Part shown: positions 10,769 through 43,148 of the stretch, in pieces
How positions within the stretch are numbered: the stretch's first letter is position 1
Layout of the letters: each line of letters starts with the position of its first letter
Source of the DNA: Paenibacillus sp. FSL W8-0426
GTDB lineage: Bacteria; Bacillota; Bacilli; Paenibacillales; Paenibacillaceae
Reading direction: 5' to 3'
Length of the DNA: 64,000 nucleotides
Assembly (NCBI RefSeq): GCF_037969725.1
Contig: NZ_CP150203.1
Coordinates: forward strand, 3,674,001 to 3,738,000
Translations under genes and position numbers: made by a program
Notes under the pieces: generated by a model
What the model was told of the DNA's origin: nothing
The model's database searches: none
Seen by the model: the letters and a program-made list of their open reading frames with translations, nothing else

Positions 10769-12079
10769 CTAGTTCTCTTTATCCAGCACACGATTTAGAC
10801 TTTCGATGAATTCCTCTGGCGTGTAGCTATCCACCAGTAGAAACTGTGTGCCGTCATTGATGGCATTCGTAATCGCCGTATTACTTAACAGCTGTGCGTA
10901 ATTCTCTGCATTCGGCAGAAGATCGGTTGCTACACGCTGCATCATGGCAGGAACATCCGAAGCGATCGGCAGGTCAACCTTAGGCGAAACGATTGGGCTG
11001 CCCAGCTGCGTGTAACGGTATTCGGCAGACTTAGCCGCCAAGAAAGCTGCGACTTCGACCGCTGTATCTTTGTTCTTGCTGCCTGGATATACGGCATACC
11101 CTTGCGGAGCTCCCGCCCCGTTGATGAAATACTTGGATTTCTCATAGGTAGCCTCGTCCTTGGCTGGCCAATACATCCAGTCCACCTGATCTCCCAGCTT
11201 CTCCTGCGAACTGTAAATCTCCCATTGGCCATTTACGAACATGGCGGCTTTGCCTTGATAGAACAAGGAGGACGCCTGATCATAGTTGGTATTCGTTGCA
11301 TTCGCATCGAATAATCCCGCTTGCTGCAGCTTCTTCATCTGCTGAGCGGCAGTCACGAAAGCGTCAGGCAGCTGTTTCATGCCCTCTTGACCCAACGCAC
11401 CAAAGCCTTGCGGCTGCTCGCGGGTCACCAGACCGTTATAGAAGGCGGTCGTAATCCACTTTTCCTTCGCAAATATGGACATCGGCACATAGCCGGCAGC
11501 CTTCAGCTTCTGCGCAGCCTCGGCCATCTGATCAATGGTCTTGATCGGTGTCTGGATGCCAACCTGTTCGAAGATCGATTTGTTGTAATAGAGGATCTGG
11601 AACTCGATTCCCGTATCGGGATAAGCGTATACATGATTGTCCGGCGCTACCAGACGGGATTCTACGCCCGGATTCAGATTCTGCTTGAATTTCGTGGTAG
11701 CTTCATAGTCATCCAGCAGCTCGACATTTTTGGATTTTGCCATCGTCTGCAGCGTCGACCAGTCTGTAAAATAGATATCAGGCATATTGCCCGTTGCCGC
11801 ATAAGTCTTCAGCTTCTGATAGCCATCCTGGACCGCAGCCTCCAGCTCAATTTCTACATTCGGCATTTCCTCTTTGAGCTTTTCCACCGCATAATCGAAC
11901 GGCTTGGACGTGTCATCATCAAAATGCTGGGCATACACCTTCAGTTTGATTGTCCCATCGCCGGATGGATTCGATGCTTCCGGAGAAGAGGATTCCGTGC
12001 TCCCGCAAGCAGCCAAAACCAATGACATTGTAAGCGTTAGCAATGCTGCCTTCAAACGTTTGTGATTCCGTACTTTCAT
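10769..12079 (-). CDS. MsmE-like extracellular sugar-binding lipoprotein
   Basis: A 436-residue family-1 solute-binding lipoprotein. The N-terminus is basic, then hydrophobic, with lipobox VLAACG and a Ser/Glu-rich linker. The body shows NMPDIYFTDWS and GKAAMFVNGQWEI, usual for MsmE/RafE-type binding proteins. The ATG at 12079 follows AGGGAGG by 7 nt, and the longer frame to 12106 would put this SD inside the gene. It heads the msmEFG-like operon, preceded by a promoter with phased direct repeats. Alpha-galactosides such as melibiose or raffinose are inferred as ligand from the linked GH36 gene. Confidence 0.9.
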   Translation of the reverse strand: MKVRNHKRLKAALLTLTMSLVLAACGSTESSSPEASNPSGDGTIKLKVYAQHFDDDTSKPFDYAVEKLKEEMPNVEIELEAAVQDGYQKLKTYAATGNMPDIYFTDWSTLQTMAKSKNVELLDDYEATTKFKQNLNPGVESRLVAPDNHVYAYPDTGIEFQILYYNKSIFEQVGIQTPIKTIDQMAEAAQKLKAAGYVPMSIFAKEKWITTAFYNGLVTREQPQGFGALGQEGMKQLPDAFVTAAQQMKKLQQAGLFDANATNTNYDQASSLFYQGKAAMFVNGQWEIYSSQEKLGDQVDWMYWPAKDEATYEKSKYFINGAGAPQGYAVYPGSKNKDTAVEVAAFLAAKSAEYRYTQLGSPIVSPKVDLPIASDVPAMMQRVATDLLPNAENYAQLLSNTAITNAINDGTQFLLVDSYTPEEFIESLNRVLDKEN

Positions 12080-12134
12080 TTCATGGCCTCCCTGTGCAGC
12101 TCTCAATTGACTGCGTTTTCATTGATGTAGCTAT

Positions 12135-12200
12135 AGTATAATCAACACGGACATGGTTCTTTAAGGAACAAAACGGGCACTATCTGTAAAAAACGGGACA
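12135..12200 (-). promoter_or_regulatory. Promoter with two phased AraC-type half-sites before msmE-like gene
   Basis: On the minus strand a -10 box TATACT (12140-12135) lacks a good -35. Two copies of CCCGTTTT (plus-strand AAAACGGG at 12170-12177 and 12190-12197) lie exactly 20 bp, two helical turns, apart, the nearer one about 30 bp upstream of the -10. This is the usual layout for activation by an AraC-family regulator, here presumably the neighbouring response regulator. Confidence 0.5.
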
Positions 12201-12237
12201 AATCCCGGCAGGTCGTTCATGAAATGCCTTGAAAGGA

Positions 12238-12275
12238 AGAGCAGCCATCCTTCAATACCGAAGAATAGCTGCTCT
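12238..12275 (-). terminator. Terminator-like hairpin after the AraC-type regulator
   Basis: AGAGCAGC and GCTGCTCT arms enclose an inner CTTC/GAAG pair. Only a weak T-rich stretch follows on the minus strand. It lies about 300 bp downstream of the regulator's stop codon and upstream of the transporter promoter. Confidence 0.35.
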
Positions 12276-12573
12276 CTATGATCGTAATTTATGGCTTACT
12301 TTTATAAATACTATATGGGTTGAACCAATGATTTTTACACAGAGACACTACGCGGGTCAGCACCATCTTCCGATCGCTGTTATCCCCAGATTTCTTTGAT
12401 CCCCTTTTTCAAGGGGAACATCCGGTGATCAGCCTATGCTTCCGATGCAGCTTTCTTACAGAAAGCTTTTAAGCGACCGCTTCGCTTCTCCAGATTCTTT
12501 CTGCCCTCTTGGTAATCGTGTAAATTTCCGGTTCAATCTATATATTATAAAAAGTACAGACGATTATTTGCAG
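12276..12573. other. Intergenic region without recognisable features
   Basis: About 300 bp between the regulator's stop codon and the terminator-like hairpin. Short inverted repeats are present, such as CCCCTTTTTCAAGGGG near 12400, but no reading frame with a start and ribosome binding site is convincing. Confidence 0.3.
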
Positions 12574-29893: not shown

Positions 29894-30784
29894 TCATGTA
29901 AGGTTGACCAGACGCCCAATTTGATTACACTCTTCAGCAAACCAAATATCCCCGTCGCTACCTAGCGCAATACCGTGCGGTTCTGCATTTTTCATAGGAA
30001 TCGGATATTCCGTAATCATTCCATCGATCGTTATTCGACCGATCTTGTTGCCGCCCCATTCCGTAAACCAAAGATCCCCGTTCCTTCCAGAGATTATAGC
30101 GTGGGGACGAGCGTTCGGCGTAGGAATCGGAAATTCCTTTATTTCGCCTGAAGGCGTAATTCTACCGATGTTATTTGCATTAATTTGCACAAACCAAACA
30201 GCCCCATCCGGCCCGCAAGCAATACCGACAGGCCCGGAATTCGGTGTAGGGATTTGATACTCCATCATTTTCCCATCCGTGGTTATTCTTCCGATCGTAT
30301 TGTTTTGATTCTGTGTAAACCATAACGCCTTATCAGGACCCGTAATAATAAAAGAGGGGAACGTATCCTGGGCAGGCAAATCAAACTCCGTCATTTCCCC
30401 CCTCGTTGTTATCCTTCCGATCTTTCCGCTCTTCATCTGGGTAAACCAAATCCCACCGTCAGGACCTTCTGTAATCCCGAATGGCGCAGAGCCCGAAGTC
30501 GGCACATCATATTCTTTGAATTGACCGTTTAACGACATTCTGCCAATCTTATTTGCGTTATATTCTGTGAACCACAGGTCGCCCGCCTGATCCGAAATGA
30601 TAGACATCGCTCCAGCGTTTTCTGTCGGAATCGAGAATGATGTGATCTTGCCTTTGGCGTCTATTCGCCCGATATGATTGCCCTTTTGTTCCGTAAACCA
30701 AATGGCTCCGTCTTTCCCGGCAGTGATTCCGTACGGCCCTGATTCATGATTGCCGACTGCATATTCAATAATCGTGTGTCTCAT
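29894..30784 (-). CDS. vgb: Streptogramin B lyase (Vgb-like), seven-bladed beta-propeller
   Basis: A 296-residue protein, about the length of known virginiamycin B lyases, which open the streptogramin B lactone ring by elimination. It is built of repeated blades with the signature PxGITxGxDGxxWFTxxxxNxIGRI, for example [18 protein letters not shown] and [18 protein letters not shown]. Blade residues include catalytic-type His (RPHAII, EPHGIAL) and Glu positions. ATG 30784 is chosen because GGAGGGG lies 7 nt before it; the frame stays open another 82 codons upstream. It follows the arr gene on the same strand. Activity is inferred, since the family also contains unrelated propellers. Confidence 0.85.
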
Positions 30785-31047
30785 ACGCTTCCCCTCCAGC
30801 AAATTACGCAATGTATCTAAATCCCCGTATACCATTGCTTCAATGTATGGATTGATGCTTTCGATATCATTGTCCCAATTCAGAGAAAACTGCGAACTTA
30901 AAACAATCGATTTCACTTTTAGATTTGCAGAACATCGAGCAATTCTAGTGCAGCTCGTTATGTTTCCTCCCCAAAAAACAAAGAGGACCTTAAAAGAGCC
31001 CCCGATTCGAAATAGGATATTTTTGAACATTGATCTATATGCGGAAA

Positions 31048-31464
31048 TTAATCGTAGATCACATTTTTTCCTTCTTCACTTAATTTTTTTAAAGATGCAA
31101 GCATATGATTGATCTCTTCATCGGAGTGTCTTTCCCATGAAGCTAATTCAGCGACTATCTTTAGAGGTGATTTAGATCTATATGAGCGTGTCGGGTTTCC
31201 AGGAAATCTTTTATCCGTTAAGTTAGGATCATTTTCAAAATCTCCTAATGGTTCTACAATATAGATCCGTTCTTTTGAATTAGATCTTGCTAATTCAGCT
31301 CCCCATTTGGCAGCATTCAATGTTGCAGTAAAGTATATATGGTTAGATTTTTTTTCTTGGTAATTGGATAAGTATTGCGGTTCCAATAAATCACCAATTT
31401 TCAGTTCTGCTTTAGTGCCATGAAAAAAAGGACCTTGATCCAAGACATCTTTTTTGGCTTCCAT
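31048..31464 (-). CDS. arr: Rifampin ADP-ribosyltransferase
   Basis: A 138-residue protein, the full length of Arr enzymes, which inactivate rifamycins by transferring ADP-ribose from NAD+ to the C23 hydroxyl. The whole sequence follows the Arr pattern: [17 protein letters not shown] (His), [18 protein letters not shown] (Tyr), [20 protein letters not shown] (Asp), [11 protein letters not shown] and a C-terminal [15 protein letters not shown] end. The ATG follows AGAGGTG. It lies upstream of the Vgb-like gene on the same strand with a 263-bp gap. This chromosomal arr is likely intrinsic, since no mobile element is seen beside it. Confidence 0.93.
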
Positions 31465-33523: not shown

Positions 33524-33805
33524 AATGACTGATAATACCTATTTTTGATATCAGCTGCGATCTTGCTTAGAATGCTCACACTCCTTGCTGTCTCTATATC
33601 TACCAATCCGTCATTTGTATAGAAATGCTTGTTGTCAATCCATTTATTTCACCAAAAATGGTTCCTTGATGTTGTACCGAATTGGCGTATAAAATATCTT
33701 CTTTGAAGTCAACGGAAAATGATAATGGATAAATTTAGACGATATGATAAAATGAGGTGTGTTCCTTGATGTTGCAAAGAGTCGAGTTTAATGGAGGGCA
33801 TCTTC

Positions 33806-35281
33806 TTGAAATGGTTATATGTCGTCATGTTCGCATCCCTATGGCTGCTGGGTATCCTGATGCTGTCACAGCATTTTCGTAAAAACTTTTGGATCGGTCT
33901 TTCTCTGCTCTGCGGGGGTATGGCGAGCTTCACCTTTTCCATCCATTTAACAATCGTTCCTTATCTATCTAGCAGGGGCTTGCTCAATCCGCTCTTAAGC
34001 AACCTTCTTTATACGTCCAGCATTGCGGCCATAACCGTTTATTTTTACTTGTTTGCGTTTGTTTTTTGCATAAGCGGGGTATGGTTCGGGGTGATCCGTA
34101 AGAGCAAAAACGCTATTCTGATCACTATTGCTTTATTCATACCCGCAGCTTGTCTACTTGGCAACCATCTGCTGAACGAGCCTCCAAACATCTTTATCAT
34201 CAACAGCTTTCGCTGGTGGGACGGATTCTACTTCATCTTGGGCTGCTGTCTTTATTTCGCCTCCTATCTATTGGAAAAGGAAGCTGAAGCAAGACGGTCA
34301 AAGCGGCGAATAGCTTTCCTATTCTCGGCAGCGATCCTTTGGGCCTTTTCAACGGATTTCCTAGGCTTTAAAACACTTCGTTTGGAAGAATGGCAGTTTC
34401 AATTGGAGAGCAACAATGCGTGGAAGAACAACGTGTTCGTTGTTCTTGGCCTAGTCGTGACCATCGTATATTTTACGCTTAAATACGGGTTTCTCGGCAT
34501 TAAATTGCGGATCGAACGAGAACGTCTGAATTCCTCAATGCGCGCTCTGACACTGGGGGTGTCTATTCTCAATCATTCCATCAAAAACGAAATTCAAAAG
34601 ATCAGCTACCTGGCTGAAAAAACAGGAGACTACATACACTCCGGCCAGTCTGCTAAATCACAGCAAACGCTTGAGCAGGTACAGACCGTGGCTAATCATT
34701 TGCTCAATATGGTTAGCCGCATTAAAGATAAAGCCGATGATATCGCACTTGAAGAGAGGGAATTGGATATTAACGAACTGATCTCTTCCGTTACGTCCCC
34801 TTTAAAACCGCAGCTTGAAGGACGCGGTATCGTCCTTCAAGAGCTGATCGAATCAAAAGGTAGATTAAGATGCGATCCCACTCATCTCAAGGAAACGCTG
34901 TCAAACCTGCTCCAAAATGCCCTCGACGTAATGCCTGAGCGAAACGGCACGCTAAGCATTCACGTTTATACAGGGAATAAACACTTGTTGATAAACGTTG
35001 CCGACAATGGATGCGGTATCCCGAAGGAGCAGCATGGCAAAATTTTTGAGCCCTTTTATACAACAAAGAAAAACACGCTAAGCTTCGGTTTAGGACTCTC
35101 CTATTGTGCTTCGGTGATGCAAAAGCATAATGGAAGCATACGTATACTTGAATCCGAGCCTGGAAAAGGCACCGTAATCGGCTTATCCTTTCCGTTGAAC
35201 CGATTCACCACTGCTTCCAAGGCCAATCGCTACTTTGATTGGAATCCTTTCTCTACAGCCCGCCGAATTAACCGTTTCTAA
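33806..35281 (+). CDS. Membrane sensor histidine kinase, convergent with a LuxR-type regulator
   Basis: A 491-residue kinase. The N-terminal about 235 residues contain seven or eight membrane segments and no large extracellular domain, so the signal is probably sensed in or near the membrane. The kinase core has the phospho-acceptor region SILNHSIKNEIQKISYLAE, then the ATPase domain with NLLQNALDVM, VADNGCGIPKEQ, FEPFYTTK and FGLGLSYC. TTG 33806 follows GGAGG by about 8 nt; an ATG at 33791 overlaps that SD. The gene converges with and overlaps by 14 nt the LuxR-type response regulator, its likely partner. Confidence 0.88.
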   Translation: MKWLYVVMFASLWLLGILMLSQHFRKNFWIGLSLLCGGMASFTFSIHLTIVPYLSSRGLLNPLLSNLLYTSSIAAITVYFYLFAFVFCISGVWFGVIRKSKNAILITIALFIPAACLLGNHLLNEPPNIFIINSFRWWDGFYFILGCCLYFASYLLEKEAEARRSKRRIAFLFSAAILWAFSTDFLGFKTLRLEEWQFQLESNNAWKNNVFVVLGLVVTIVYFTLKYGFLGIKLRIERERLNSSMRALTLGVSILNHSIKNEIQKISYLAEKTGDYIHSGQSAKSQQTLEQVQTVANHLLNMVSRIKDKADDIALEERELDINELISSVTSPLKPQLEGRGIVLQELIESKGRLRCDPTHLKETLSNLLQNALDVMPERNGTLSIHVYTGNKHLLINVADNGCGIPKEQHGKIFEPFYTTKKNTLSFGLGLSYCASVMQKHNGSIRILESEPGKGTVIGLSFPLNRFTTASKANRYFDWNPFSTARRINRF

Positions 35282-35855
35282 AAGGGTTGAGCTTGTTTTT
35301 TATGCTTTTCAACTGTGATTTGATCGTATTGGTGGATTTGTATAGTTTTTCAGAAATTTGCTGTTTGCTGAGCCCCTGCTTACGTAGCTCGAATACTTCT
35401 CGTTCCGTGGGCGTAAGCGGCATTAGCTGAACCTCGTTTCGCATAATACTTGCGGCATCCGCATGAATAGCGGACCGGTTGGCATATGCTTCTCTTACTG
35501 CACGAACGATGTCTTTGTAGCTTTGCTTCGTAATGTAATTCATGGCGCCCAGCTGAAACGATTTGATAATAATGTCTTTGTCCGAAAGCGAGGTCAGCAT
35601 AATAATTTTTACGTTACGATGTGTCAGCAGTGTTGAAATTTCATGGGCGGCCTCCAGGCCGTCCAAATTGTTTTCAGTCAAATTAATATCCATAAGTACG
35701 ACATCGATCTCTGTTTCAAGTGCAGTTCGAACCGCCTCTTCTCCCGTACCCACTACTGCAACAACATCTATATCCGTTTCCTCCGCCAAATCACTGCTTA
35801 TATTCTGCTGCCAGAAAGAATCGTCCTCAACGAGCATTACGCGTATACGCTCCAT
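35268..35855 (-). CDS. LuxR/NarL-type response regulator
   Basis: A 195-residue response regulator. The receiver (1-120) has MLVEDDSFW, phosphorylated Asp in DVVLMDINLTENNLDG, and LTSLSDK and ITKQSYKDI. The C-terminal HTH (about 145-195) reads LTPTEREVFELRKQGLSKQQ then STNTIKSQLKSIKNKL. It is divergent from the Ig-like protein operon, sharing a 256-bp region that carries an inverted repeat next to a TATAAT box. The regulator most likely controls that operon and perhaps itself. It pairs with the convergent kinase. Confidence 0.92.
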   Translation of the reverse strand: MERIRVMLVEDDSFWQQNISSDLAEETDIDVVAVVGTGEEAVRTALETEIDVVLMDINLTENNLDGLEAAHEISTLLTHRNVKIIMLTSLSDKDIIIKSFQLGAMNYITKQSYKDIVRAVREAYANRSAIHADAASIMRNEVQLMPLTPTEREVFELRKQGLSKQQISEKLYKSTNTIKSQLKSIKNKLNPFRNG

Positions 35856-35947
35856 GTAAGCACCCTGCCTTCCGCGGTATTCTTTCTATGGAAACCGGAA
35901 GCACTACAGCTTCGAATGTAGTATATCAAAGATGGTTATCGCCTGAT

Positions 35948-36003
35948 AGGATGAAAATTTTTCACCCTTTCAGTATCGCTGCAGGGTGAGAAAAGTTCAT
36001 CCT
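35948..36003. promoter_or_regulatory. Large inverted repeat operator in the divergent promoter
   Basis: Left arm 35948-35968 and right arm 35983-36003 match at 18 of 21 positions in inverted orientation, with a 14-bp centre. Each arm carries AGGATGAA then TCACCCT and is itself nearly symmetric. The right arm ends exactly where the -35 of the plus-strand promoter is expected. This fits a response-regulator activator site; assignment to the adjacent LuxR-type protein is inference. Confidence 0.6.
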
Positions 36004-36026
36004 CCCCAGCCTATTCTCGAACGCTC

Positions 36027-36032
36027 TATAAT
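36027..36032 (+). promoter_or_regulatory. -10 box of the Ig-like protein operon
   Basis: A perfect TATAAT. The sequence 17 bp upstream (CCCCAG) does not resemble a -35 box, and the inverted-repeat arm abuts it, as expected for an activator-dependent promoter. The start codon is at 36112, giving a leader of about 73 nt. Confidence 0.5.
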
Positions 36033-36111
36033 GCGAATTGTGAATGACGGCAACAGCGCCCGAAAGCGCCCATGTCGCAACGATTCCCATTTAAAAAGGA
36101 GTAGATTCAGA

Positions 36112-38715
36112 ATGTCCACAAATAAAAAGCAAGACGCCTCCCTTCGCTTAGCCGGAGAAACCAGTGCACCCATCATCAGTTACAACGTACCTGAACCGAC
36201 ATCCTACACCGGTCGTACCTACATTGAACTGACATTTCCCGACGATAGTTTTCTTCCGTCAGCAGCCGGTAATAACTCAATCGTTTCACGAGCAGCATCC
36301 GCCAAAAACGAATCTCCGGTTGAGGCGTTACGTAAAGCGAAGCGATCGGGAGAACGGATGACTGAAAAGCTTAAAAAGCTCACCGAAGAGGAGGTCGAGC
36401 AAGCAGCCCTTGAAGGCAAGCAGCTGTCAATTTGCCGGACAATGACTGGTGCATTGGCCCACCGGTTCAAAGGTGATTCTACCGCTTCTATAAATGCGGT
36501 GAACGCAGCTTCCCTTCGCCCGCCTCTGCCTACGACCGACGACGGCGGATACCCTCCTTCCGTTCCCACGGATCCGGGCGGCGGTGGTGACGGCAGCTTT
36601 CCTGACCCGGTAGATCCGAAAATCAGCGTGTCGATTACTTCGCCGGCCCCAAACACCAGGATTACCGGACCACATACCGGAGCTCCAGTGACCATCACGG
36701 GTAAAGCCTTGGTAACCGTAGGCGGAGGCACGATTTCACATGTCAGAGTTAAAATAGGAGATGGAGACTACAATGAAGCCACGCTTTTAACCAATGGTTC
36801 CTGGACGTTCAATACAATAATTGCGACAGAAGGAAGCCTGGCCATTAAAGCACAGGCAGAGCACAGTTTCGGTTCGGTTACGAACGTATCGACGGTAACG
36901 GTAAACGTAGATCTCGAGGATCCGGACACGGTTCCACCAACCGTAGCAATTACCTCCCCTGTTCCGGGACAGCATTACAGCGCTGCCGGGAGAGACTCCA
37001 TTTCCGTCATGATTGAGGGTACCGCGTCGGATATGCATGGTGTTTCCAAAGTCGAACTTATTGTTGATGGCGGAGCCTCGGTGTTGGTCGATACGTCTGA
37101 CCGATACGCAAACTGGAAAAAAGCGCTGACGTTAGGAGCAGGAAACCATTCAATTGTAGCTCGCGCTACAGACAGCTTTGGATTAACTGGAGAAACGAGC
37201 CTCACGGTATTGATCGATGCCACTCCACCCACCATTTCTATTACTTCGCCCGCAGCAGACGGAAATGTGGCCGGGACGCATACGAAAGGAGCAATCCTGG
37301 AGGTGACGGGAACTGCCCTAGACGATCATGGCATACGAGTCGTAGAGGTGACTGTTGATAATAATCCCGTTTATACACGTGCAGCCGAAGTCGAGCCTAA
37401 TAATTGGTCAAAGTGGAAAGCCGCCGTTCAAATTGACCAATCTGGCCCTCATTTTATAACTGCTAGAGCAACGGATCTTGCAGGCAATACGGTGGAGACA
37501 ATGATAAAGGTGAATGTCACCATCGTTCCGGAGATTACCTCCCGCACTAACCGCATCATTTTGATTGAGTCCTACCGCCTTTCTTCTTTCTGCGGACAAT
37601 ACGGGATTGGCCGCATGCTGAACACGTTCTCTCTTCTGCCGGGCGAAAAGAGCAAAATAACGATTCGGTCCTATACGCAAAGTGAAGAAAGCTTAAAGGA
37701 TGCGTCCAGCATTCTTGATTCCGTAACGGACGATATCGCATTGGAATTCGAAAAATCAATCGGGGACGAATCGTCCAATAAAACAGTATATGAGGAAAGC
37801 GATGCCTACAAACTTGAAGCAAGCATGGGTATCAGCTGGGGCGGATGCCTGAGCGCATCGGCAAGTGCATCAACTAGTGGCACGACGAATGCCGCGCGCG
37901 AGCAACTGACCAAAAACATTGTAAATGCGGCCGAAAAACATGTGTCCAAAGCCTCGGCACGCCGTGACTTGAAAGTGGAAACCACTTACGAAATCAAAAC
38001 GACCAAATCGGAAGAAAACGTCATTATCCGAGAGATCGAAAATGTGAATATGAGCCGTACTCTTAATTTCGTGTTCCGTCAAATGAATCAGGAATTTATA
38101 ACGCTGCTACACCTGGTAGATTTGCGGATCGGCTATTTCTGTGCAGATAACGACTACTACAGGGAAGTGACGCTTCCGGAGCTTGATGGCCTTTTGGCTG
38201 AGGTGATCGTGGAAGAAAAACGGGCTGAAATCCGAAATGCAATTTTGAATCAAATGACAAACATTTTCGATTACAAGGATCGCCACCATGTCTTCGTTGA
38301 GGAAGAACAGTTTACTGATTCTGATGGAAATGTCGTGCCACTCTCCAGTTATTTGAGAGTTAAGAAAGACTACACTACAGAATACTATGACGAAGCCACT
38401 GGAACAAAAATTAGTGTCCCCGGCATTATTATGGCAGCCAACCGGCATGTTCTTCGTACTGATGGCATTGCCGTCGAAGCGGTGCTCGGACAGGGCGAAG
38501 CGCTGGATGCTTACTCCCGCAATCTGCAGGAACAAGCCGTTCGAGAGAAGGAGCTCCGCAACGATATGCTGGAGGCAGAGATCAAAATGAAACAGCTTGC
38601 CCTGTCGATTCTAAAAGAACGCGATGAGGCGGCGGCTCAAATTTACAGTTTGCTGAACCCTGCACCGATTGCAGAGGAAGAATCCACCCCGGCTGCTGCT
38701 GTTACTCTTAGATAA
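36112..38715 (+). CDS. 867-residue Ig-like repeat protein with large unknown C-terminal domain
   Basis: No signal peptide, lipobox or membrane segment is seen. Residues about 1-130 are mixed, with a Lys/Glu-rich helix (ERMTEKLKKLTEEEVEQAAL). A Pro/Gly linker follows (about 140-168). Three Ig-like repeats begin at about 168, 275 and 372, each with ITSPxP near its start and DxxGN or SFGxT near its end. The C-terminal about 390 residues include LLPGEKSKITIRSYTQSEES, a Ser/Ala-rich SASASASTSG stretch, long helices, TLNFVFRQMNQEF and a final coiled coil (LRNDMLEAEIKMKQLALSIL). I cannot name this domain. ATG 36112 has an AAAGGAG SD; the frame opens at 35986 without one. It is in an operon with a coiled-coil protein. 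Confidence 0.82.
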   Translation: MSTNKKQDASLRLAGETSAPIISYNVPEPTSYTGRTYIELTFPDDSFLPSAAGNNSIVSRAASAKNESPVEALRKAKRSGERMTEKLKKLTEEEVEQAALEGKQLSICRTMTGALAHRFKGDSTASINAVNAASLRPPLPTTDDGGYPPSVPTDPGGGGDGSFPDPVDPKISVSITSPAPNTRITGPHTGAPVTITGKALVTVGGGTISHVRVKIGDGDYNEATLLTNGSWTFNTIIATEGSLAIKAQAEHSFGSVTNVSTVTVNVDLEDPDTVPPTVAITSPVPGQHYSAAGRDSISVMIEGTASDMHGVSKVELIVDGGASVLVDTSDRYANWKKALTLGAGNHSIVARATDSFGLTGETSLTVLIDATPPTISITSPAADGNVAGTHTKGAILEVTGTALDDHGIRVVEVTVDNNPVYTRAAEVEPNNWSKWKAAVQIDQSGPHFITARATDLAGNTVETMIKVNVTIVPEITSRTNRIILIESYRLSSFCGQYGIGRMLNTFSLLPGEKSKITIRSYTQSEESLKDASSILDSVTDDIALEFEKSIGDESSNKTVYEESDAYKLEASMGISWGGCLSASASASTSGTTNAAREQLTKNIVNAAEKHVSKASARRDLKVETTYEIKTTKSEENVIIREIENVNMSRTLNFVFRQMNQEFITLLHLVDLRIGYFCADNDYYREVTLPELDGLLAEVIVEEKRAEIRNAILNQMTNIFDYKDRHHVFVEEEQFTDSDGNVVPLSSYLRVKKDYTTEYYDEATGTKISVPGIIMAANRHVLRTDGIAVEAVLGQGEALDAYSRNLQEQAVREKELRNDMLEAEIKMKQLALSILKERDEAAAQIYSLLNPAPIAEEESTPAAAVTLR

Positions 38716-38727
38716 GGGGGGGCATAC

Positions 38728-39432
38728 ATGGGAACCTCAGGGAACGACAAACATCAAAATCCTGTTCTTCATGAAAGAGCCTTAGAAAAGATCAGCAAAT
38801 TCATGGTCGACCACGATGTTTTGTTCAAGCTATACAAAAAAGCGGCCGATCAGCTGAAAAAGGCGCTGGAGAAAGGAAAAGCAGGTTATGTACTGGATTT
38901 TCATAAAGTCCATATGCAATACCTGATTATGGTCTATACCGCAGTTGTGAAGATCGAGGAAACGGCGGAGGCCGTTTCTCAGTTGGAAAAAAACTTGGAT
39001 GCTTATGTAGCATCGGCAGAAAAAGAACTGCAATTTTCAGCGACGATCTCACCCGATCCGTTGCAGAGAATGACGACAAACGAGCTGTATTATAACTCTT
39101 CGGATCCTATATTTAAACGGCTATACAACGATACCGTTCTAACACAGCGCCAGTTGACCAAGGCTGTTCTGGACTCCCTTGTTGAACACGGTGACCAGGG
39201 ACGTCTAATCAAGGAGGACACGAAGATAAAACTCGGAGAGCTCAAAGAAAAGCTGGAAGCGATGGTTCCGAAGTCGTCAGCGGAACAATTGATCATTAAC
39301 CGCAACAAGCAAAACCTTGATATGGTTTCCCTTAAACTGGCGAAGCTGGAGGTCATAATTGGACGTATTGTTCAAGCGATAGCTGAAGCCCAACGAAACG
39401 AAGAAACGGCTAATCACTATCCGTTGATGTAA
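38728..39432 (+). CDS. Helical coiled-coil protein, partner of the Ig-like protein
   Basis: A soluble, almost fully helical protein of 234 residues with heptad-like stretches (LYKKAADQLKKALEKGKAG, AVSQLEKNLDAYVASAEKEL, LGELKEKLEAMV and LKLAKLEVIIGRIVQAIAEA). It has no signal peptide and no recognised domain. The ATG follows AAGGGGGGG by 5 nt and lies 12 nt after the Ig-like gene's stop, so the two are made together and probably interact through helices. Its function is unknown. Confidence 0.8.
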   Translation: MGTSGNDKHQNPVLHERALEKISKFMVDHDVLFKLYKKAADQLKKALEKGKAGYVLDFHKVHMQYLIMVYTAVVKIEETAEAVSQLEKNLDAYVASAEKELQFSATISPDPLQRMTTNELYYNSSDPIFKRLYNDTVLTQRQLTKAVLDSLVEHGDQGRLIKEDTKIKLGELKEKLEAMVPKSSAEQLIINRNKQNLDMVSLKLAKLEVIIGRIVQAIAEAQRNEETANHYPLM

Positions 39433-41450: not shown

Positions 41451-43148
41451 CTAGGGCTCGATTCCCCAGACGAGCTTTCCTTTCCGGTACAGCGTAACTT
41501 TGTTCCAGTCGCTGAACGACGTCTTCGTCCCGTCGAACGAGTAGTCGTCCGACGGGTTGAAATCCGACCAATCGCTCTTGGCGATACGCACCTGGATGTC
41601 GCCGGATTGGCCGCCTGCCGGAATCGAACCGGCCATCGCCGCGAACCGGATTTCCAGATACCCATCCGTTCCTGTTCGCGCCGGTTCGATCGGTGCAAAC
41701 GTTCCGCTAACGGTGTTTGTCCCGACCTGGGCCCAATCACACCAGAATTTGAGCTCTTTGCTGCCGTCTTTCGTGAAATAATAACGAATCTTCACTTCAC
41801 TCAGCGGGATGTCTGTCTTACCGTTATTGGTGATGTTAAACGCAGCATGGATCATATTGTCCTCTGCCGCGCTACTGTTGCTCGTTTTGTACTGGACGGC
41901 GAGTCCCTCGGCAGCGTTCGTTCCGCCGCTCGCAGGCGCCGTCGCTTCTGCTGCCTTTTTCGATGGCGCCGGATCTGCTGCCTGTTTCGGAGCGGCTGGC
42001 TTGCCACCGTTCACGGGCTTCATGATCCTGGCAAGCATCTTTTGCTTCGGCTTGTTCCATGTCTGCCAGTCGTCTAACAGCAGCCCGCCGGTATCTCCGC
42101 TGTTCGGGTTGAGGCTCCAATATGTCCAATACAGATCATTCCGGCTGATGTAGTCGACAAGCGCATTTTGCCACTTGCCTTCCTTCGAGGCCGTATCGAC
42201 GCTGCGTCCGCCGAACTCCCCCAGCAGGATCGGCGCGATTTTTTCCTTATGGATGTAACCCCAGTTCGCATCCCATACACCGGACAGGTTGGCGGGAAAT
42301 TTCCTGTCGGCAAACCACGGCTGCGACGAAACACCCGGGCCGTAATCGTGCGGCGAATAAACGATCCGGTTTGCCACCTTCAGCCGGACCGGATATTTGC
42401 GGACCCCTTTCAGATTGCCGCCCCACCAATAGGAGCCGCTCTGTCCCTTTACTTTCGCGTCCACCCCTTCCACAACGATCAGCCAATCCGGGTTAACGGC
42501 GAGAATCGCATTGCCCGCCCGTTCGGCAGCCAACCGCCAGTCGGTGGCCGAATCGCCGCATCCCCAGCAAACGGAACCGTGCGGCTCGTTATGCAAATCG
42601 GCGCCGATCACCGTGTCGTTGCCCAGGTAACGCTTTGCAAGCATCTTCCAGTCTTTGATCCATGTCTTTTCCGGAACCGATGGCGTATACCATCGCTCCG
42701 TTTGCCCCGAGGCCGTTGGACGGTGACGGTCAAGAATGATTTTCATCCCGCGTTCTCCCGCTTTTTGCACGAGCTTGTCCAGCAGTTGCAGCGGCGTCAG
42801 CCCCTTCAGGTCAGGATTTTTCGCATAGTCGATTCCGCTTGGCGTTTTGCCTGGCAACAGCATTTCGTTCGTATATGGAATGCGCAGCAAGTTGTAACCT
42901 TCCTTGGCAAGCTGGTCCAGCACGCTGTCCATCGACCGTGTCCACAAGCCATGGGGAGCAAAGTTGTCCGTTTCAAATCCAAACCAGTTCACTCCGTTGA
43001 AGTTGGCCGGTTTGCCCTGCGCATCGACGATACGGTTGCCTGACGTGTGGTAGTAGCCCAAAGAAGACAAGGAATTGGCTGATGCTGCAGCCCCGATACC
43101 CGAGACGAGCATGGCCACCAGCAGCAGACAGGTTCCTATTTTTTTCAT
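41451..43148 (-). CDS. Secreted GH5 endoglucanase with CBM3 module
   Basis: A 565-residue exported enzyme that cuts beta-1,4-glucan. A Sec signal peptide (residues 1-24, ending ASA) is followed by a GH5 catalytic domain (about 30-385) with NFNGVNWFGFET, LRIPYTNEML, the acid/base Glu in GADLHNEPHG and the nucleophile Glu in ILLGEFGG. An Ala/Pro/Lys linker (about 385-415) leads to a C-terminal cellulose-binding CBM3 (LAVQYKTSNSSA, FCDWAQVG-like FWCDWAQVG, DDYSFDGTK). The ATG has a GGGAGG SD. It is a single-gene unit; the module binds crystalline cellulose while the catalytic domain cleaves it. Confidence 0.94.
   Translation of the reverse strand: MKKIGTCLLLVAMLVSGIGAAASANSLSSLGYYHTSGNRIVDAQGKPANFNGVNWFGFETDNFAPHGLWTRSMDSVLDQLAKEGYNLLRIPYTNEMLLPGKTPSGIDYAKNPDLKGLTPLQLLDKLVQKAGERGMKIILDRHRPTASGQTERWYTPSVPEKTWIKDWKMLAKRYLGNDTVIGADLHNEPHGSVCWGCGDSATDWRLAAERAGNAILAVNPDWLIVVEGVDAKVKGQSGSYWWGGNLKGVRKYPVRLKVANRIVYSPHDYGPGVSSQPWFADRKFPANLSGVWDANWGYIHKEKIAPILLGEFGGRSVDTASKEGKWQNALVDYISRNDLYWTYWSLNPNSGDTGGLLLDDWQTWNKPKQKMLARIMKPVNGGKPAAPKQAADPAPSKKAAEATAPASGGTNAAEGLAVQYKTSNSSAAEDNMIHAAFNITNNGKTDIPLSEVKIRYYFTKDGSKELKFWCDWAQVGTNTVSGTFAPIEPARTGTDGYLEIRFAAMAGSIPAGGQSGDIQVRIAKSDWSDFNPSDDYSFDGTKTSFSDWNKVTLYRKGKLVWGIEP

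Follow-up and report, generated by a model that had tools for sequence, protein, structure and literature searches.

A candidate two-gene effector module with a conserved carrier and an exchangeable cargo in Paenibacillus sp. FSL W8-0426

A 64,000-nt stretch of the Paenibacillus sp. FSL W8-0426 genome (GCF_037969725.1, NZ_CP150203.1, positions 3,674,001-3,738,000 of the forward strand; hereafter the window, on which all coordinates are numbered) was analysed around the locus at positions 33806..39432. The source genome is a single 6.9-Mb contig and is 99.99% complete. Two genes of this locus (36112-39432) are read, with a slight leaning in favour, as an effector module of a carrier and a cargo protein, exchangeable in its cargo, its binding insert and its regulation. 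The first gene (36112..38715, + strand, ATG to stop) encodes the 867-aa carrier, made of an N-terminal peptide, a linker, three Ig-like repeats and a C-terminal core. The second (38728..39432, +), separated from it by 12 nt (38716-38727), encodes a 234-aa protein in the cargo position, in which a motif-bearing, disordered N-terminus precedes a predicted helical bundle. The original prediction had called this operon-like pair correctly, including the product lengths and the gap, whereas its grouping of both genes with a neighbouring kinase and regulator into a four-gene unit was not supported, because the kinase/regulator pair stood beside the carrier in only three of 40 loci, and in none of the eight loci from an order-level search (L069 repeats L021), and also drives other genes. 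What the original prediction had named as refuting it, separation of the genes in related genomes, therefore applies to the kinase/regulator pair but not to the two-gene operon, which leaves a unit of two genes instead of four.

Distribution of the carrier family

The C-terminal core (residues 474-867; 37531..38712, +) falls in no catalogued family and defines the carrier family. Residues 476-867, searched in the GTDB genome collection, retrieved 40 loci (labelled L0xx) at 36-100% identity, distributed over many bacterial phyla and archaea (Halobacteria, a Nitrososphaera bin, and Lokiarchaeota bins), with the copy in Paenibacillus sp. JJ-223 (L011) being 100% identical to that of the window. 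In 28 core sequences, 22 invariant positions were held in common. In Pfam, NCBIfam, PHROGs and PADLOC, residues 474-867 had matches only at E-values above 0.01, among them a weak one of phrog_16511 to residues 794-839 (E = 0.026). The 28 cores searched individually against Pfam-A to E = 5 had no common family, the hits being scattered over one or two members each among the families listed (25 of 27), and no solved structure was found with a 36-row profile (best E = 0.29). The earlier remark that this region could not be named was thus borne out for Pfam, NCBIfam, PHROGs, PADLOC and PDB sequences. No paper describing the family was recognised among open-licence titles and abstract openings, which does not prove it undescribed. 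For a core well conserved in bacteria and archaea, Lokiarchaeota bins included, to have no Pfam model is unusual.

Within the order, the core was present in 10 of 197 relatives, counting the window's own genome and one weak match (G128); none of the other nine belonged to the window's genus. An evenly drawn phylum sample yielded two positives in 398 genomes (the source genome and one weak partial match), and a sample around an Actinomycetota genome yielded one in 246, namely the centre genome itself. The 28-row core tree intermixed phyla and domains. It paired the window with Cohnella at 100/99, and this pair was then joined, at 100/100, in a five-row set of Paenibacillaceae, one Gemmatimonadota and one cyanobacterial row, in which all three carriers scanned (window, L024, L025) had Ig repeats. 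Given the mixed tree and the patchy presence in the order, horizontal transfer of the carrier is the simplest reading, tree mixing alone being no proof.

A second carrier N-terminus was found on the Lokiarchaeota contig of L043, on the opposite strand (L043 3-746, -). Carrier or cargo frames appeared broken in L019, L020, L029, L032 and L047, suggesting decay or sequencing errors.

Architecture of the carrier

Members of the family were laid out as a short N-terminal peptide, a variable middle and the conserved core. The N-terminal peptide of the window's carrier, SYNVPEPTSYTG (residues 23-34; 36178..36213, +), follows a SYNVPEPTSYSG-like pattern present in 40 of the 49 family open reading frames (ORFs) scanned; the nine ORFs without it were mostly truncated at contig ends or frame-broken, with L035 apparently a genuine divergent case. 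The middle of the window's carrier holds three Ig-like Big_7 stretches (36628..37521, +, approximate limits; Pfam E = 7.5e-23), placed at about residues 173-470 by reading and by overlapping domain matches, as the three repeats had been originally described. Pfam also recognised Ig repeats in L024 and L025, LamG in L038, L041 and L050, SH3 in L041, and helix-hairpin-helix in L043, and no domain in the middles of L034, L048, L049 and L063. Short carriers of ~540-600 aa (L028, L030, L033, and others) have, judged by length and reading, only a brief linker at this place. As far as these sequence comparisons go, the Ig repeats represent just one insert type among several, outside the conserved core.

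In a Kyte-Doolittle scan, no 19-residue mean exceeded 1.58 in any carrier, and the window-type protein, scanned as the near-identical L011 copy, reached 1.18 at most, in agreement with the earlier statement that the large protein has no membrane span. The same scan found neither the signal peptide nor the anchor of an Ig-repeat surface adhesin, and the doubt first cast on classical export was judged right.

Downstream cargo genes

In 35 of 40 loci, the start of an ORF of 100 aa or more was no further than 80 nt from the carrier stop, two of them doubtful (101 aa in L038; the carrier's own shifted tail in L047), compared with divergent ORFs at the carrier start in 9 of 37. The five loci without a close downstream ORF were L020, where the cargo frame is broken, L021, L034, L040, and L041. 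Taking the first possible start codon, carrier-cargo gaps ranged from -80 to +74 nt. A set of 30 downstream proteins, hand-picked without near-duplicates (L043, L044 and others were left out), fell into 22 BLAST-distinct groups, the largest being the window's helical type, which was common in Paenibacillaceae. Among the 20 cargos searched with Pfam, eight were over the curated cut-off and 12 below it; the domains were Hedgehog/M15-like (L022), M15 (L025, L045), GH5 (L031), Endonuclea_NS_2 (L032), M23 (L036), Fic (L046), and a partial phage-spike OB domain (L039). The L042 cargo matched an NCBIfam restriction-endonuclease model far under its cut-off. The window's 234-aa protein had no Pfam family over cut-off (matches only at E-values above 0.01, such as DUF3842 at 0.023), and in its structure model the first 25 residues were disordered and a confident helical bundle followed; of the helical coiled coil proposed for it originally, the helices stand and "coiled coil" was loose wording.

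A nine-residue motif (D[KR]xL[NS]xxAL-like; for instance DRVLNKSAL, DKILNEKAT and DDLLSEEAL) was common to the first 45 residues of the 22 group representatives, with an expectation-maximisation score of 120.2 against 89.4-103.4 in 12 shuffles, and a likeness of it, PVLHERAL, lies within the first 25 residues of the window's cargo. By hydropathy, 28 of the 30 cargos had no membrane span. Unrelated cargos therefore appear to share an N-terminal tag beside one conserved carrier. Because the cargo groups vary and many are enzyme-like, yet share this short motif, the comparison suggests a module of a conserved carrier and interchangeable, often enzyme-like cargos.

Near the carriers, no third gene family recurred except among close relatives, leaving aside generic kinases and regulators (eight loci each). 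No cognate immunity gene was identified, given that no third family recurs widely and that no search was aimed at immunity proteins. Next after a distant carrier homologue (28%) on the Sinorhizobium meliloti plasmid pAK76 comes a gene with the annotation polymorphic toxin type 44, for which the NCBIfam scan gave nothing; this pair (L063 14206-16869) lies amid mobilisation and VirB-type transfer genes. In L069, a cargo-like gene of 396 aa (11198-12388, -), the start of which resembles the L005/L070 cargo, is situated ~1 kb from the carrier, on the opposite strand and past a nitroreductase-like gene. Wall hydrolases (GH25, Amidase_3) lie immediately upstream of the carriers in L068 (11487-12257, -), L020 (7721-8491; by likeness to L068), and L067 (6663-7553).

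Kinase/regulator cassette and operator

Upstream of the carrier, a multi-span sensor histidine kinase (33791..35281, +; Pfam HATPase_c, 2.7e-25) and a 195-aa NarL/LuxR-type response regulator (35268..35855, -; Response_reg, 6.8e-18, and GerE, 7.9e-9) converge, with the 14-bp overlap of their 3' ends (35268-35281) noted previously. A HATPase kinase adjoining a receiver-GerE regulator makes this a two-component pair by Pfam, with phosphotransfer predicted only. The kinase may start at ATG 33791 or at TTG 33806, the latter being plausible because GGAGG at 33793-33797 could serve as its ribosome site.

The pair flanks the carrier in L011 (near-identical to the window), L012 and L017. Homologues of the kinase sensor half were present in 92 of 197 relatives, and, leaving out that of the window itself, the eight top-ranking ones (46-85% identity) were all in carrier-less genomes; in seven of these eight, a regulator 64-72% identical to that of the window adjoined the kinase, with the same operator. 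The divergent output was a P450 gene in three genomes (assigned by Pfam in L086 and by similarity in L084 and L085). In L087 it was a Dabb/catalase region, as read from the sequence, and in three others a contractile-tail operon (assigned by Pfam in L088 and L089 and by similarity in L090). Tail proteins recognised by Pfam in L088 and L089 were the sheath, the tube, an XkdN-type chaperone, a tape measure, a LysM protein, and a YqbQ-like protein. Judging from these comparisons, the kinase/regulator pair is a separate, exchangeable cassette outside the module core.

Two GGRTGA-N7-TCAYCC dyads (35949..35967 and 35984..36002, the second starting 35 bp after the first) are the only ones within the 64-kb window. 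The exact tandem pair occurred once in the 6.9-Mb genome (backward control, 0) and in five of 197 relatives, including the window's genome, each time at a kinase/regulator-cassette locus (backward control, 0 matches in the 197). The half-sites were conserved in all 10 intergenic regions compared (window, L012, L017, L084-L090), mostly forming two dyads, with a -10-like box downstream of them. In the window this box is TATAAT (36027..36032, +; read from sequence), without a clear -35, and TATAAT, TATACT or TATAAG was found at a similar distance in other loci. This conservation supports an operator for the regulator in the carrier promoter region, to which it would bind. The regulator-operator cassette is of use in its own right, as a clear example of how regulatory modules are exchanged, with a single signal input rerouted to varying output operons.

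Contractile-tail operons, baseplate-like genes included, were observed at L088 6861-14000, L089 6626-14000, L091 1-4561, and L092 1-4605; the tail-operon stretches that were read by eye showed no recognisable capsid or lysis gene. The eighth of the genomes with the best kinase homologues, which is of the window's genus, retained only a kinase remnant in two segments of 79% and 85% (L083 8299-9118), with no regulator or carrier match nearby.

Predicted fold of the core

The core was predicted as a long strand, an amphipathic insert and a second long strand, and 13 of the 15 highest family-mean beta moments (overlapping 10-residue windows) fell within core residues 92-156, inside the insert. Fold searches with the structure model of homologue L028 (pLDDT 76) gave only weak matches (best Foldseek E = 0.069; best VIA Z to a pore-former, 4.0), and none of the 28 members matched a catalogued pore-former profile in Pfam-A to E = 5, among the families listed (25 of 27). 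The weak fold matches and the amphipathic segments hint at a beta-pore-former, which is unproven. In a viral structure library, a protein of the giant virus Yasminevirus (A0A5K0U6Q4) matched the carrier model with E = 7.7e-10 and 18% identity.

Beta-pore-forming toxins have a separate binding domain, and many members from sporeformers have no signal peptide. The carrier, with its putative binding insert and no signal peptide by hydropathy, resembles aerolysin-like and other beta-pore-formers (proaerolysin, Tpp/Cry35, parasporin-2, monalysin) in these points and in its predicted strand/insert/strand core with an amphipathic insert; it differs in showing no significant sequence or fold match to them, in having a larger insert with helices, and in its downstream cargo of varied type.

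Proposed mechanism and alternative readings

The first gene would yield a soluble carrier with its N-terminal peptide, exchangeable binding insert (here the three Ig repeats) and ~390-residue core, and the second a cargo, in the window a helical bundle, whose short N-terminal motif may dock it to the carrier or to the export route. Release would occur without a signal peptide, via cell lysis or an unknown machine; the insert would bind a target, through whose envelope the core would pass the cargo, perhaps through insertion of an amphipathic beta-hairpin as in beta-pore-forming toxins. An antagonistic role may be supposed. The exchangeable kinase/regulator pair would control the promoter via the conserved tandem operator. 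The wider claim, of a cross-domain two-gene delivery system with a self-contained soluble carrier, an exchangeable insert for target binding, a membrane-inserting core and motif-docked effectors, independent of known secretion machines and pluggable under regulatory cassettes that elsewhere drive contractile-tail weapons, is tentative and on present evidence rather doubtful. Should the core indeed carry interchangeable effectors, it would represent a novel mode of delivery, simple and modular in design (binding insert, core, docking motif), with many effectors as yet unstudied.

Carrier and cargo could instead be the adaptor and effector of a contractile injection system, either an extracellular contractile injection system (eCIS) or a tail-like particle, with the cargo riding along with a particle-bound or loaded carrier. 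The eCIS marker Pvc16_N was present in 14 of the 38 genomes behind the 40 core loci, possibly above background, and was not found in the remaining 24, some of which are incomplete bins. The partial phage-spike domain of the L039 cargo and the PBSX-type contractile tail driven by relatives of the window's regulator are in line with such a system, as is the GerE regulator that PMC8213781 describes as conserved in eCIS operons, with a kinase gene upstream in 9% of those containing it. However, Pvc16_N had no match in the window's own nearly complete genome (G000), and neither had Phage_T4_gp19, though the control genomes gave none either. Pvc16_N occurred in 36 of 197 relatives, that is, in one of 10 carrier genomes versus 35 of 187 others, with no positive association, and outside close relatives no third gene family recurs beside carriers, generic kinases and regulators excepted. 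In the window's strain an eCIS seems unnecessary for the module, and we regard the contractile-system reading as unlikely.

A scaffold or chaperone that stores or assembles client enzymes within the cell, with nothing exported, would fit the lack of membrane spans in carriers and in nearly all cargos, and the N-terminal motif of the cargos might serve as a tag of the encapsulation type; yet the cargo domains are directed at walls or polysaccharides (M15, M23, GH5) or are toxin-like (endonuclease, Fic), the insert types are usual outside cells, and a cross-phylum spread is unusual for a housekeeping scaffold, which makes this reading quite improbable. Were the carrier a surface adhesin or display protein with an unrelated helper gene downstream, the Ig, LamG and SH3 inserts would be expected, but not the absence of any membrane span or hydrophobic N-terminus, nor the ~540-600-aa forms with scant room for an adhesive insert, nor neighbours too varied for one helper that nevertheless have an N-terminal motif in common; we give it little credence. 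A phage-defence or abortive-infection role, suggested by the small, patchy two-gene layout and by the nuclease- and Fic-like second genes at some loci, is very improbable indeed in view of the lack of a PADLOC match, the wall hydrolases and cellulase among the cargos, and the membrane kinase that regulates the module in the window's strain.

Comparison with known systems and neighbouring genes

In polymorphic toxin systems, a conserved part that serves trafficking is paired with effector domains that vary widely. The effector module proposed here is similar in its many alternative effectors (22 groups of 30; 8 of 20 over Pfam cut-offs), for which the carrier would have the trafficking role, and in its several toxin-like effector domains, including the type 44 annotation of the distant plasmid cargo. 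Unlike in polymorphic toxins, the trafficking part and the effector are separate genes rather than one polypeptide, the cargos share a short N-terminal motif, and the trafficking part is an unnamed family. With eCIS effectors, as described in PMC11297309 and PMC11495950, the cargos share an N-terminal non-Sec, mostly disordered region on variable proteins, and an occurrence in bacteria and archaea. In contrast, a sequence motif was detectable in the cargos here, whereas no conserved eCIS signal sequence was detected according to PMC11297309, and the window's genome has no eCIS marker. PBSX-type contractile tails share the kinase/regulator family and the operator type, but their output operon is a phage tail and not a carrier module.

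Elsewhere in the window, what we take by eye to be a virginiamycin-B-lyase-like propeller protein adjoins a rifampin-ADP-ribosyltransferase-like protein (29894-31464). Beyond the cargo gene, the product of 41451-43148 (-) was taken by eye for a secreted cellulase of GH5 type bearing a carbohydrate-binding module at its C-terminus.
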